From an uncultured Bacteroidia bacterium (GTDB lineage Bacteria; Bacteroidota; Bacteroidia; Bacteroidales; F082): a DNA stretch of 64,000 nt. The notes under the pieces are model-generated. The model saw nothing but the letters and a program-made list of their open reading frames with translations. It did not search any database and was not told the origin of the DNA. The stretch covers positions 53,695-117,694 of the forward strand of contig CACXQV010000005.1 of the NCBI GenBank assembly GCA_902769875.1, written 5' to 3'. How positions within the stretch are numbered: the stretch's first letter is position 1; each line of letters starts with the position of its first letter. This document shows positions 48,207 through 53,617 of this stretch, in pieces. The translations under genes and the position numbers were made by a program.

Positions 48207-48274
48207 TTTTGGTTTATAATCTGCTTGTGCTTATTTTTTAAGGTGAATAAGTATTGTAGTATCAAATAAAATCG

Positions 48275-49526: not shown

Positions 49527-49575
49527 TTATAATCTGCTCAATTTGGGTAAAAAACAGCAAATTGAGCAGATTATG
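49527..49575. repeat. Palindromic element, left copy, flanking the 49608 ATPase
   Basis: Perfect 17-bp arms ATAATCTGCTCAATTTG (49529-49545) and its complement (49558-49574), loop GGTAAAAAACAG. Nearly identical to the block at 51048-51097 on the other side of the gene, in the same orientation. Confidence 0.9.
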
Positions 49576-49589
49576 ATTTCAAAAATCCC

Positions 49590-49607: not shown

Positions 49608-51038
49608 ATGTTTTGCAAAATGATAGGAAGAGATAAGGAAAAGCAGGAACTGCTGGATGCGTATCACTCTGAATGTTCGGAGTTTGTGGCTGTTTATGGT
49701 CGTCGGCGCATTGGCAAGACATTCCTCATCAGGGAAACTTTCGACTACCAATTCACCTTCCAACATTCAGGCAACTCACATGCGCCTATGGAGAAGCAGC
49801 TGGAGGCTTGGCTTGCATCGCTCAAAAATTGCGGTTGGAAAGGGGAGAAGATTCCAGCAAGTTGGATTGAAGCCTTTTCCATGCTCAACGAGCTCATCAA
49901 GGCTTCGCGCCGGAAACGCAAGGTGGTTTTCATCGACGAGATGCCGTGGATGGACACGCCGCGCTCGTTTTTCGTCTCGGCGTTGGAGTATTTTTGGAAC
50001 AACATGGCCTCAGCCCGCAAGGACGTTTTGCTCATCGTGTGTGGTTCGGCCACTTCGTGGGTCATCAACAAGATTATCAAGAATCACGGCGGACTGCATA
50101 ATCGGGTGACGCGACAGATACAACTTCTGCCGTTTACGTTGGACGAGTGTGAGCGTTATGCCAACAGCATGAAATTGGCTTTCGACCGCTATGCCATTAT
50201 CAAGGGCTACATGGTGTTTGGCGGCGTGCCTTATTATTGGTCGTTGCTGAAAAAAGGACTTAGCATCGACCAAAACATTGATACCCTTGTGTTTAATCCG
50301 ACAGGCCGCTTGCATGGCGAATTTGAGGAACTGTATGATTCCTTGTTTCGCTCGCCTGATGACTATATCAAGGTGGTGACGGTGCTTGGGCGGATAAAAA
50401 TCGGCATGACGAGGGAGGAACTCATCGAGAAAGGGAAAATCACCAACAACGGCAAACTGAGCAAGATTCTCGGCGACCTTGAATATTGCGGATTCATCAG
50501 GAAATACAGGGCTATAGGCAGTGCCAAATATAAGGCAATGTACCAGTTGATGGACAATTTCACCCTCTTTCATTTCAAGTTTGTCCGGGAGAACAAGACC
50601 AACGACCCCGATTTTTGGATGCATAGCATCGACACACCAATTTATAACGCTTGGAACGGCTTGGCCTTTGAGCGCGTGTGTTTCCAGCATATAGCCCAAA
50701 TAAAGCAGGCTTTGGGCATTTCAGGAGTGCAGACAAACGTTTTCGCTTGGCAGGTCGAGGCTTCGGGCAAGAACAACCCTGGTGCGCAGATTGATATGGT
50801 AATCGACCGCGACGACCATGTGGCCAACCTTTGCGAGATGAAGTTTGCCGACGAGGAATACTGCCTCACTTTGTCTGATGACAAAAGTTTAAGGCATAAG
50901 AAAAACAGGCTTCTGGAAGTGCTCCCCAAGCGGAAATCCATCTTTGTGACCTTGGTCACGCCATACGGCTTGACACCTAATGTTTATGCAGGTAATATTC
51001 AGAATGATATTTCTGTAAATGAGTTGTTTGCGTTCTGA
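49608..51038 (+). CDS. AAA-type ATPase (ATPase_2/DUF234-like) with C-terminal PD-(D/E)XK-like region
   Basis: A 476-residue protein. It starts with IGRDKEKQELL, then Walker A AVYGRRRIGKTFLI (about residues 28-41), Walker B KVVFIDEMPWMDTP (about 105-118) and sensor LLIVCGSATSWVI. A winged-helix part follows (GMTREELIEKGKI, LSKILGDLEYCGFIRKY) and a nuclease-like end AQIDMVIDRDDHVANLCEMKF. The alternative start at 49620 (MIGRDKE) fits the family better. Family function is unknown. The gene is framed by identical palindromic blocks at 49527-49575 and 51048-51097, so gene plus one block may be a transposable or exchangeable unit. Confidence 0.85.
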   Translation: MFCKMIGRDKEKQELLDAYHSECSEFVAVYGRRRIGKTFLIRETFDYQFTFQHSGNSHAPMEKQLEAWLASLKNCGWKGEKIPASWIEAFSMLNELIKASRRKRKVVFIDEMPWMDTPRSFFVSALEYFWNNMASARKDVLLIVCGSATSWVINKIIKNHGGLHNRVTRQIQLLPFTLDECERYANSMKLAFDRYAIIKGYMVFGGVPYYWSLLKKGLSIDQNIDTLVFNPTGRLHGEFEELYDSLFRSPDDYIKVVTVLGRIKIGMTREELIEKGKITNNGKLSKILGDLEYCGFIRKYRAIGSAKYKAMYQLMDNFTLFHFKFVRENKTNDPDFWMHSIDTPIYNAWNGLAFERVCFQHIAQIKQALGISGVQTNVFAWQVEASGKNNPGAQIDMVIDRDDHVANLCEMKFADEEYCLTLSDDKSLRHKKNRLLEVLPKRKSIFVTLVTPYGLTPNVYAGNIQNDISVNELFAF

Positions 51039-51047
51039 ATATTGAAA

Positions 51048-51097
51048 TTATAATCTGCTCAATTCGGTTAAAAAACAGCAAATTGAGCAGATTATAA
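51048..51097. repeat. Palindromic element, right copy, flanking the 49608 ATPase
   Basis: Arms TTATAATCTGCTCAATT (51048-51064) and its exact complement (51081-51097). The stop codon of the radical SAM gene (51092-51094, minus strand) lies within the right arm. Confidence 0.9.
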
Positions 51098-52186
51098 GTT
51101 GAGGTTCGCTTCCGTTATCCGTTTCTCAATATGCGCGAAGATTTTCTTGTAGGCTGTGCAAAGGAAGGTCTTGCTGCTGAAGTCGCCTGATTTGAGGAAG
51201 CCATCGTGAAGACAACCTCCGTGGCAGATGTCCAACCATTTGCAATTCTTGCAACTGCCTTTTTCGATATACTCTGAACGTTTGTAGATTTCGGATTGCT
51301 TGATGCGGGGCAGTATTTCTGAAAGCGTTTCCTCGTGTAAGTTGCCGTAAGAATAGTGCAGCAAGTCGTCATCGCAGAAGCGGCCGCAGGGCATCACGTC
51401 ACCCGTGGGTGCAATGGCGAAGAAGTTGTCCTGACAGTTGCGGCTGAACATGCAGCCCGTGGTCTTCTTGGAAACGATGTTGCTGGCAATCTCCACGAAG
51501 TTGGATTCTGTGATTTCGCCTTGGTTGTCGTCGAACCACAAATCGAACAGTTCTATTGACATTTGGGCGTACTCCGCAGGCGTGATGCCGTATTCGTCTA
51601 TGTTGTTTGTGGCCTCGCCTGCCGAAAACAAAGGATTGAACTTGAAGTTCAACTTGTTTTCCTTCATAAAGTTGTAAAGTTCCGGAATATGTCCGATGTG
51701 TTTCTTTCCGGCCACGACGATGCAGCCGGGACTGATGCCTTTCTCCCTGCAAAGCGCGAGTTTCGACATAATAAGGTCGAAAGTGGGTTGGCCGTTGATG
51801 CCTACGCGCTGTTGGTCGTGGACTTCTTTTGTGCCATCCAAAGAGAAGCCAGGACGGACATTGTATTGCAAGAACAAATCCGCAAATTCCTCCGTGATGA
51901 GTGAAAGGTTGGTTTGGATGGTATTGTGATAGTTGATGCCTTCCAGTTCCTGCTGCATGAAGGCAAAAATCTCCCGATAGTTCCCGATGCCCCAAAGCAA
52001 CGGCTCTCCGCCGTGCCAAATGATCGACACTTTTCGATTCGTTCCGAAGGCCTCTTTTAATTGCAATACGATTCGCTTGGCAAATTCTATGTCAAACTTA
52101 TCTGTATGTGCCTTCGTCCCGTTGCTCAAATAGCAATATTTGCAACGGAAATTACATGCGTATGTGGGCTTAATAATAATTATCAT
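51092..52186 (-). CDS. Radical SAM/SPASM enzyme, putative RiPP-modifying maturase
   Basis: A 364-residue radical SAM protein. The 4Fe-4S site for S-adenosylmethionine is C11-N-F-R-C15-K-Y-C18. The barrel continues with SIIWHGGEPLLWG and FSLDGTKEVHDQQRVG. A C-terminal SPASM domain binds extra clusters: PCGRFCDDD, GSCKNCKWLDICHGGCLHDG and a final C. The same class includes anaerobic sulfatase maturases and peptide-crosslinking enzymes. It starts 8 nt behind a 60-residue peptide gene whose core is made of aromatic-X-acidic triplets, so I read it as that peptide's maturase. No sulfatase gene is nearby. Confidence 0.85.
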   Translation of the reverse strand: MIIIIKPTYACNFRCKYCYLSNGTKAHTDKFDIEFAKRIVLQLKEAFGTNRKVSIIWHGGEPLLWGIGNYREIFAFMQQELEGINYHNTIQTNLSLITEEFADLFLQYNVRPGFSLDGTKEVHDQQRVGINGQPTFDLIMSKLALCREKGISPGCIVVAGKKHIGHIPELYNFMKENKLNFKFNPLFSAGEATNNIDEYGITPAEYAQMSIELFDLWFDDNQGEITESNFVEIASNIVSKKTTGCMFSRNCQDNFFAIAPTGDVMPCGRFCDDDLLHYSYGNLHEETLSEILPRIKQSEIYKRSEYIEKGSCKNCKWLDICHGGCLHDGFLKSGDFSSKTFLCTAYKKIFAHIEKRITEANLNL

Positions 52187-52194
52187 TGTTTAGA

Positions 52195-52377
52195 CTAATC
52201 AGGCTGCTCATAATAACCACTATCAAAATAGTCGGAATAATCATTGTAGTATTCCTCATACTCAGTCCAATCGCTATAGTCATCATGAAAATCTTGAAAT
52301 TTTCCAGATTTGACAGCCCTAAGTTTCATCTCTATTCTTTCAATAATAGCTTTTTGTGCAAATGTGTTTTTTGTCAT
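52195..52377 (-). CDS. Putative RiPP precursor peptide with aromatic-X-acidic triplets
   Basis: 60 residues. Leader-like half (1-26): MTKNTFAQKAIIERIEMKLR then AVKSGK, helical and basic. Core half (27-60) contains nine triplets of aromatic-X-Asp/Glu: FQD, FHD, YSD, WTE, YEE, YND, YSD, YFD, YYE, mostly back to back. Such Omega-X-Asp-type motifs are the substrate pattern of radical SAM enzymes that form three-residue cyclophanes (triceptides). The maturase gene follows after 8 nt. No cysteines, no signal peptide. No exporter or protease gene is next to it. Codon-level signs of coding are good, and the length alone would make it easy to miss. Product structure is inference. Confidence 0.75.
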   Translation of the reverse strand: MTKNTFAQKAIIERIEMKLRAVKSGKFQDFHDDYSDWTEYEEYYNDYSDYFDSGYYEQPD

Positions 52378-52409: not shown

Positions 52410-53090
52410 TTATTTGTCATTTATATATTCTGTAAAATCTATTTCTCTGGTTGTCATAGTGCCATCAATAAAACGGGAATTAAAACGGATGCATTCTATG
52501 CCTTTGTATTGTTTTGTTTTTAATCTTTGAACATTCCCAAATATCTTATGTGGGTCGTCATAAGTGATGACTATCTCTAAAACTCTATCCTTATTTCTAT
52601 CGAAAAACTCTTTGATAGATTCTTTTTGTGTCTGCTCCTCTTGTTCTAATTCGTTTTTTTTGTTGATATTTGCAACATAACTGGTCACTTTTCTTTTTCG
52701 TACTTCATCAATCTCTATTTCAGATTCATACATTCCAAAGTATTTTTTTTCTACGCCATCTTCTTTCATACCACGTAATATTGGAACTTTATCATTAGTA
52801 AATGTTGGAGACCCGTTTGTCGGTGTGCGGTATGTAATGCGAATATGAATATTTAATAATGTGCGTTTAGATGCATTTTGAATTTTGAATTTATACTTAC
52901 CATTATTTTCCACAATAACATCTGAAATGTCAAATTTTGGTTTAAACTTAGTTATTCTAATATAGAGACATAATGTAGCGATAATTCCAGATAAAATACC
53001 AGACATTATCCCAACAATCAATTCGAGGTAAAATGGGATTTCTTGAGCCAGTGAAACACTGATTTCCATAATAATATAATTAGTTACCAT
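52410..53090 (-). CDS. Single-pass membrane protein of unknown function next to the RiPP locus
   Basis: About 226 residues from ATG 53090 (or 53069, MEISVSLAQ). One membrane helix (LELIVGIMSGILSGIIATLCLYI), then a cytoplasmic part of beta-rich character (DISDVIVENNGKYKFKIQN, TLLNIHIRITYRTP) and a charged, helical segment (NKKNELEQEEQTQKESIKEF). Longer in-frame versions start within the promoter box TACTTTTG (53137-53130). It ends 33 nt before the peptide gene on the same strand, so it may share the transcript; a role in immunity or export is possible but unsupported. Low G+C compared with neighbours suggests acquisition. Confidence 0.6.
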   Translation of the reverse strand: MVTNYIIMEISVSLAQEIPFYLELIVGIMSGILSGIIATLCLYIRITKFKPKFDISDVIVENNGKYKFKIQNASKRTLLNIHIRITYRTPTNGSPTFTNDKVPILRGMKEDGVEKKYFGMYESEIEIDEVRKRKVTSYVANINKKNELEQEEQTQKESIKEFFDRNKDRVLEIVITYDDPHKIFGNVQRLKTKQYKGIECIRFNSRFIDGTMTTREIDFTEYINDK

Positions 53091-53129
53091 GATTGTGTTT
53101 AGTTTTACATAACATTCTGTTTTGTTGAG

Positions 53130-53137
53130 CAAAAGTA
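53130..53137 (-). promoter_or_regulatory. Promoter -7 box of the membrane protein/RiPP transcript
   Basis: TACTTTTG on the minus strand, about 40 nt before the ATG at 53090. No other clear promoter was seen before the peptide gene. Confidence 0.45.
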
Positions 53138-53437
53138 CAACAATAATTCATATACGATCAAAAAACACTAAATTTTTACAAGAAAGAACAAGAGCGTAAA
53201 GCTCTGGAGTTATGTTATGATGCTTATGGGCATTTCTAAAAAATTGCAGGCAATTTTTATCTCAAATTTAATAAAATTCATATAATCAACAAATTAGAAA
53301 AATCTTAAATTCTCAAATTCTTGATAATTAGAAATCCCCAATTCTATTATCTTTATTCTATTGGTTTATAGTTTGTTATAATATCGTTATTCAATCATCT
53401 GTCTTGCCCATTCAGGCATTTCATTCACATATTTTTA
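53138..53437. other. AT-rich gap without an intact gene
   Basis: Holds a small hairpin AGAGC-GTAA-GCTCT-type sequence (about 53192-53207), the recurring AAATCTTAAATTCTC words and, on the minus strand, the short open stretch VNEMPEWARQMIE that is in frame with the small gene at 53438-53617 after two stops. No tRNA or larger gene seen. Confidence 0.4.
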
Positions 53438-53617
53438 TTACTTGTTTCCGTATTTTTGTTGGTACATTTCATTGATTTCGTTGAAATAGCGTTTAAGTGC
53501 CTCGTCATACTTCTGGTTGGTTTCCTCCGCCACTTCCCGCATGATATACGCTAACATCTCGTCCGTTGGCTCTTCCAACGAAGTCAAACGGTAGGCATTG
53601 ATTTCTTTCTCTGACAT
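53438..53617 (-). CDS. Small hypothetical protein, possibly truncated
   Basis: 59 residues, ATG at 53617: MSEKEINAYRLTSLEEPTDE at the start, then MLAYIMREVAEETNQKYDEA and a charged helical end. The EPTDEML segment is seen in small Bacteroidales proteins that accompany toxin-like genes, by recollection and not verified. It stops at a double TAA, after which the same frame continues with KYVNEMPEWARQMIE to another stop, which suggests a once longer protein. Confidence 0.45.
   Translation of the reverse strand: MSEKEINAYRLTSLEEPTDEMLAYIMREVAEETNQKYDEALKRYFNEINEMYQQKYGNK

Follow-up and report, generated by a model that had tools for sequence, protein, structure and literature searches.

This analysis concerns a 64,000-nucleotide stretch of DNA (the window) from an uncultured Bacteroidia bacterium (Bacteroidales; F082; contig CACXQV010000005.1, assembly GCA_902769875.1), described as a gut bacterium, in which a small gene for a peptide made of triplets adjoins a radical S-adenosylmethionine (SAM) gene. 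We read three genes on the minus strand, in the order M (membrane protein), A (precursor peptide) and B (radical SAM/SPASM maturase), as an operon for a ribosomally synthesized and post-translationally modified peptide (RiPP) of the poly-cyclophane, triceptide-like kind, with M as a membrane partner cognate to the peptide core. We put the probability of this reading at roughly two in three. The enzyme probably staples each triplet of the core into a ring. Relatives of the system keep the enzyme and swap the peptide core together with M.

Conservation of the precursor-maturase pair

The initial annotation described a 60-codon gene ending 8 nt before a radical SAM/SPASM gene, and its coordinates agree with ours (gap at 52187-52194). 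The product of A, MTKNTFAQKAIIERIEMKLRAVKSGKFQDFHDDYSDWTEYEEYYNDYSDYFDSGYYEQPD, contains no Cys and matches no NCBIfam or Pfam family above cut-off. All nine of the triplets named earlier are there: FQD, FHD, YSD, WTE, YEE, YND, YSD, YFD and YYE.

Relatives were collected by scanning one genome per species, from which 80 loci were kept. B was present at 56-91% identity in 17 of these; the next enzyme by score had 27%, and shorter partial matches reached 36%. All 17 loci and the window have a peptide upstream of B or M with the leader [FYCW]AQ..I..[RK]..K or a close variant, and L055, L058 and L060 have two precursors each. Remote members were sought in whole genomes using the enzyme alone, which yielded three in an order sample of 393 genomes (G405, G123 and G267) and two in a family sample of 198 (G498 and G546). 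A leader-bearing peptide is present at all five, that of G267 (L153) being poor in motifs. All 23 loci carry a precursor, 26 in total, and each sequence was confirmed letter for letter. Every locus combines a short precursor, a shared leader, a diverged core and an adjoining modifying enzyme, as in RiPP gene clusters, and the conserved pairs in other Bacteroidales that the initial annotation had suggested looking for occur at all of these loci. The named loci are, by title, from metagenome or uncultured-bacterium assemblies; the genome of the window is 82.6% complete with 5.7% contamination.

Among 99 genomes of the window's genus, a close B (E 2.5e-145 or better) was found in 7. Strong matches to A occurred in the same 7, with one weak extra (E 0.04), and strong matches to M in 6 of them, the seventh having a weak match on a different contig. 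No strong orphan A or M was seen among the 99 genomes, and this is the informative part of the result because the search profiles include several of these sequences. In a phylum sample of 395 genomes, the sole match at E 1e-80 was the window's own genome.

As a control, we searched for the leader pattern together with at least two [FYWH]x[DE] motifs in open reading frames (ORFs) of 30-110 residues. Such an ORF was found at 23 of 23 family loci and at 1 of 89 distant radical SAM loci (63 from the species scan; the other 26 hold paralogues found in the genus and the order), although the controls comprised three times more sequence. Because the pattern had been derived from the family itself, the comparison was not blind, except for the five remote members. 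Motif count alone gave 3 matches in 65 control loci (39 of the 63 distant loci and the 26 paralogue loci), and 19 of the 26 true precursors pass that threshold. The lone control match to leader plus motifs is a 76-residue ORF beside the nearest outside relative (L003), plausibly a Cys-rich precursor itself.

This nearest outside enzyme (35% identity, G047) lies behind the 76-residue precursor-like ORF (L157:1343-1573, the same as L003:1256-1486), which ends in a Cys/Gly-rich stretch (GQCGCVMGCLGG) and not in acid triplets. The same genome encodes a Tyr-rich peptide (YYDYYNYYSYYYYY...) with a twin-arginine-like start (L158:1-373); a further DynA-like radical SAM gene (L158:2189-3334, 169 bits) lies some 1.8 kb away.

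The enzyme tree leaves the deep order of the family open, and no single origin is claimed from it because long outgroup branches meet. In the open-access papers searched we found no printed report of such a repeat family, nor of a Kir-like immunity protein.

Spacing of aromatic and acidic residues

The core of the window peptide holds 9 [FYW]x[DE] motifs, whereas shuffles that keep its composition average 3.78 (p 0.001). Synonymous codons in A are mixed (6 TAT and 2 TAC for Tyr; 6 GAT and 2 GAC for Asp), and a recent DNA tandem repeat was therefore rejected as the origin of the triplets. A run of triplets by chance was likewise rejected, both for the single core and family-wide, by the shuffle tests.

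In all 26 cores together, an acid at position +2 of [FYWH] occurs 142 times versus 60.6 expected (z 13.8; none of 1000 shuffles as high), and 97 times versus 40.5 after dereplication to 18 cores (z 12.2). Position +2 is the strongest of eight offsets tested (26 precursors, 23 loci). Offsets -1 and +5 are enriched too, and +3 and +4 depleted, as expected from contiguous triplets. The Omega-x-X motif (i, i+2) of triceptides is thus present in the cores, and the triplet period looked for in related genomes proved to be a family trait. The third residue is Asp in 111 motifs and Glu in 31, and the middle residue varies widely, with Ser, Gly and Asn most frequent. Residues lying in a motif are 94 of 144 Tyr, 19 of 38 Phe, 9 of 14 Trp and 20 of 35 His. 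When the first 21 cores were tested one by one, 13 exceeded their shuffled versions (p <0.05). Contiguous triplets number at most five, in L062. Nine motifs, as first described, holds for the window peptide and fails as a rule: the count of [FYWH]x[DE] varies from 2 to 10 between cores, which places nine towards the upper end.

Nine precursors (L056, L057, L059, L063, L065, L068, L151, L152 and L161) share the C-terminus DYNDCHGDYYD, which contains a Cys and an H-G-D triplet. The seven of these loci with an enzyme in the tree do not form one branch. These precursors appear to constitute a second, conserved product type.

Joint variation of the core and M

The enzymes of L062 and L064 share 95% identity and their cores 39%. 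Mean core identity is 44% among the 30 pairs whose enzymes are at least 75% identical, and 42, 41 and 35% in three lower bins, levels that low-complexity cores reach through composition. Correlations were computed on 15 of the 23 loci, excluding L056 and L057 (enzyme copies frameshifted in the record, also left out of the enzyme counts), L089 (partial enzyme), L152 (short M), and L066, L069, L153 and L160 (no M). Core similarity did not track enzyme similarity (r -0.10), and leader similarity correlated with that of the enzyme (r 0.42, p 0.0015).

Similarity of M followed that of the core when enzyme similarity was held constant (partial Mantel r 0.69, 0 of 2000 permutations as high), and its correlation with the enzyme was weaker (0.25, p 0.0025). 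With near copies dropped, the partial r for M and core was 0.61 (14 loci), 0.38 (12) and 0.53 (10), all at p <=0.0035, and rank versions of the dereplicated test gave 0.48-0.70. L059 and L060, whose enzymes are 91% identical, illustrate the pattern, with similarities of 0.92 for the enzyme, 0.04 for M and 0.25 for the core.

The M gene is absent from the initial annotation. We chose the ATG at 53090 as its start, giving 226 residues; a longer ORF begins at TTG 53132, inside a promoter match. M has one predicted transmembrane helix and a beta-sandwich domain that would face the cytosol. The predicted domain resembles the cytosolic domains of Kir channels (Foldseek TM-score only 0.41), a shared fold that by itself shows no function; unlike Kir/KirBac channels, the window M has a single predicted helix and is too short for a pore. 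M occurs at 18 of 23 loci, split in two at L057, and L152 has a short ORF in its place. It matches no NCBIfam or Pfam family above cut-off, and its best PDB sequence match has E 0.3.

The maturase

B contains the Pfam domains Radical_SAM and SPASM, with CxxxCxxC at residues 11-18, the signature PCGRFC at 266-271 and eight auxiliary Cys (245, 251, 267, 312, 315, 321, 325 and 343). There is no room for a RiPP recognition element ahead of CxxxCxxC, which starts at residue 11; no model-based search for such an element was made. Comparison with NCBIfam covered the best 25 of 74 matches, and B scored under the cut-off of all 25 families. The top model was DynA (NF041298; 288 versus 450 bits). It is also the best model for five further members (four remote ones and L066, 256-278 bits), and it matches all 15 members of the enzyme alignment A1 and has the lowest E-value of that scan. 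The precursors here are of another kind from that of dynobactin.

The initial annotation had likened the enzyme to the triceptide groups, and comparison with the models shown did not support membership in a modelled group: scores against cut-offs were 99/450 for XyeB, 121/310 for GrrM (GrrM/OscB), 85/370 for FxsB and 139/445 for YhhB, as well as 123/425 for AmcB, and no model named YxdB was among the 25. PapB-type ranthipeptide enzymes act on a Cys-x3-Asp motif; B reached 127 of the 340 bits for that type, and the window peptide has no Cys. ChlB with its ChlA leader (PDB 9gm3, 9gmc), presumably a cyclophane former, is 19% identical to B. Judged from its sequence, B is best explained as belonging to a new subfamily, with DynA and the anaerobic sulfatase maturases as its neighbours.

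Proposed product and alternative explanations

In the proposed mechanism, B would recognise the leader of A (FAQKAIIERIEMK) and, in each Omega-x-Asp/Glu triplet, link the aromatic side chain through its ring to C-beta of the acid at i+2. Two hydrogens would be lost per ring, so that the window peptide could carry up to nine small cyclophanes, at full conversion minus 18.1 Da. Leader removal and export would follow, and M, with its one helix and an Ig-like, probably cytosolic domain that is net basic in most of the proteins, would handle the particular product, most likely as an immunity protein or receptor. The ring-closing step is modelled on reported three-residue cyclophane chemistry and on the repeated action of TvgB: YxdB is reported to join Tyr C3 to Asp C-beta (PMC11002830), and TvgB to act on each TVGG unit of a repeat, with 2 Da lost per unit (PMC9062424). 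TvgA/TvgB resemble A and B in that one enzyme modifies every unit; they differ in that TVGG repeats and cyclopropylglycine take the place of aromatic-acid triplets (PMC9062424).

Like the triceptide and cyclophane enzymes XncB, OscB, MscB, YxdB, HaaB and YhhB, B is a SPASM radical SAM enzyme beside a short precursor with aromatic to i+2 geometry. Unlike them, it falls below the cyclophane cut-offs in the comparison above and faces nine motifs, often with Glu third; the cores are diverged, run to five contiguous triplets in L062, and are accompanied by M.

Several observations weigh against the poly-cyclophane reading. Seven of the 26 precursors (the second copy of L055, L064, L066, L067, L069, L089 and L153) fall under the strict motif threshold, and 8 of 21 cores (the second copies of L055 and L058, L063, L064, L065, L066, L067 and L069) do not rise above their own shuffles at p 0.05; those of L066 and L153 hold just two [FYWH]x[DE]. 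We know of no triceptide ring on Glu, yet Glu is third in 31 of 142 motifs. Among the best 25 of 74 NCBIfam matches, B lies under every cyclophane-family cut-off. L064 and L067 keep their core (enzymes 92%, cores 100% identical), and the correlation of leader and enzyme falls short of significance once the set is cut to 10 loci. Four loci (L066, L069, L153 and L160) lack M. The link between M and core could be mere co-transfer: because adjacent A and M may travel together, the result is one of coupling, not yet of binding. No transporter or protease gene was seen in the operon, and no C39 peptidase (PF03412, 0 matches) in the 82.6% complete genome, versus 8 of 14 control genomes positive. A survey of RiPPs in 1,136 Bacteroidales genomes placed its emphasis on C39 transporters and Gly-Gly leaders (PMC10352776); among our 26 precursors Gly-Gly occurs in only two cores, those of L058 and L060.

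Other readings of B were weighed against this one. It can hardly be right that B is a standard anaerobic sulfatase maturase, or an enzyme for some other protein, beside which the peptide lies by chance. The second-best NCBIfam model is indeed sulfatase_rSAM (TIGR03942), and the best structural match of B is anSME; however, the 227 bits reached lie under the 349-bit cut-off, and all 20 family enzymes compared have PCGRF, with Gly where 22 of 29 distant paralogues carry a catalytic-type Asp. We take this position after the third SPASM Cys to be that of Asp277, the catalytic Asp of anSMEcpe (PDB 4k36-4k39), from which B also differs in the family Cys 146, 155 and 271, missing from nearly all distant paralogues. 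Score and Gly led us to reject the sulfatase alternative, already named in the initial annotation; a peptide is present at 23 of 23 loci, its core changing from locus to locus beside a conserved enzyme. It also seems unlikely that B, as a RiPP maturase, makes some other change on the same triplets, such as an aromatic ether, a C-N or C-O bond to the acid, epimerisation or desaturation. Such chemistry would suit the Glu in 31 of 142 motifs, to our knowledge unusual for C-beta rings, and the 146-150 bits that DarE-type models score on B. In the dynobactin pathway, from which the closest model (DynA, 288 bits) comes, the radical SAM enzyme, there called DynE, is reported to form one C-C and one C-N bond (PMC11002830). 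Against this, three-residue cyclophanes are laid out in just this way, with +2 spacing and a middle residue that differs widely, and the bond reported for YxdB is of that type.

The remaining alternatives concern the role of the product. A metal-binding or surface peptide, such as a metallophore or matrix peptide, in place of a weapon would accord with cores rich in Tyr and Asp, 20 of 21 of which have a net charge between -4 and -11 (the 21st was mis-split between leader and core in that reading), and with the secreted or outer-membrane-type genes that adjoin several loci; core diversity far above the apparent need of metal binding, and its co-variation with M, make this improbable in our estimation. 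We hold similarly modest expectations of a toxin-antitoxin-like or phage-defence cassette in which the modified acidic peptide controls M as an effector. The system is patchy (7 of 99 genus genomes), adjoins a zeta-toxin scar and an antitoxin-like gene, and in G498 an AbiGi-like gene, and M is a small membrane protein that co-varies with the core and whose soluble part is net positive in 15 of 18 members, versus acidic cores. PADLOC, however, returned just two weak matches among 16 M proteins, one member each and none in the window M; four loci with A and B lack M and a fifth has a short ORF; and nearby toxin-antitoxin genes may merely mark a variable site.

If the triplets are closed as the poly-cyclophane reading has it, the product would be a ribosomal peptide dense in rings, up to nine of them in the window version, all formed by a single small enzyme. 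Enzyme relatives serving very different cores would then offer a tool for peptide engineering and a test of how far a maturase reaches along a repeat, and a third gene that varies along with the core supplies a testable partner, unlike an orphan enzyme-peptide pair. Tentatively, and with the odds against it, we suggest a combinatorial system in which one conserved enzyme closes nearly any aromatic-x-acid string into a series of contiguous small rings while core and Kir-domain partner are exchanged, a polymorphic pairing like that of bacteriocin-immunity or self-recognition sets.

Operon signals and genomic site

The features of the locus are collected in Table 1. M, A and B (53162 to 51045, minus strand) are read as one operon, presumably co-transcribed, because of the promoter match ahead of them and the T-run hairpin behind. 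The promoter pattern, TTTG N17-22 TANNTTTG, which we take to be the Bacteroidetes-type consensus, has 7 matches on both strands of the 64 kb. A leader-like string, TFAQQ, upstream of M (about 53120-53150) was not counted as a second precursor; it overlaps the promoter match. Near-identical hairpins at 49527-49579 and 51048-51100 stand on either side of an AAA ATPase gene (49608-51038), with a third, partial copy at 48209-48225.

Table 1. Positions of operon features in the window and of B remnants in related genomes
Feature	Position	Strand	Remarks
Promoter match, Bacteroidetes-type, TTTG-N21-TACTTTTG	53130..53162	minus	ahead of operon
M, membrane-protein gene	52410..53090	minus	present in 18/23 loci
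A, precursor peptide, 60 aa	52195..52377	minus	including stop
Leader part of A, residues 1-26	52300..52377	minus	TFAQKAIIERIEMK fits family leader (alignment); putative border
Core part of A, residues 27-60	52198..52299	minus	nine [FYW]x[DE]; putative leader/core border
B, radical SAM/SPASM maturase, 364 aa	51092..52186	minus
Terminator-like hairpin with T-run	51045..51100	minus	inverted repeat directly behind B; overlaps last B codons
B 3' remnants	L135:3507-3584, L136:3236-3316, L154:1320-1400		window counterpart 51092-51170

In G018 the fabG and LytTR neighbours are 98% and 99% identical to those of the window. The operon was not found in G018, G019 or G118, where the last 26-27 codons of B remain next to fabG; weaker remnants occur in G016 and G021 (L137 and L138). 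The 3' ends of B kept at the same place beside fabG imply loss or replacement of the locus at a single site. The window itself retains about 15 codons of a zeta-toxin-like gene (53390-53434), whole in G118 (L154:3375-3974), behind an intact 59-residue antitoxin-like gene (53438-53617). The site appears to be variable, with genes replacing one another and leaving short 3' ends behind. Mobile carriage was rejected: all 340 plasmid and 43 phage matching records have <60% identity (the eight listed of each, <=28%), and 10 viral-contig loci reach at most 32%.

In G498, an AbiGi-antitoxin-like gene (PF10899; L160:5768-6526) lies 5 nt behind the radical SAM gene. A CsgG/FlgO-like secreted protein pair stands directly upstream of the precursor at L151:5007-6481, its Pfam matches weak and one just over cut-off, and the pairs at L152:4615-6271 and L161:5446-6984 resemble it by eye. 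Lipoproteins at the same place in other loci would be classed as LPP20-like or FISUMP-like.
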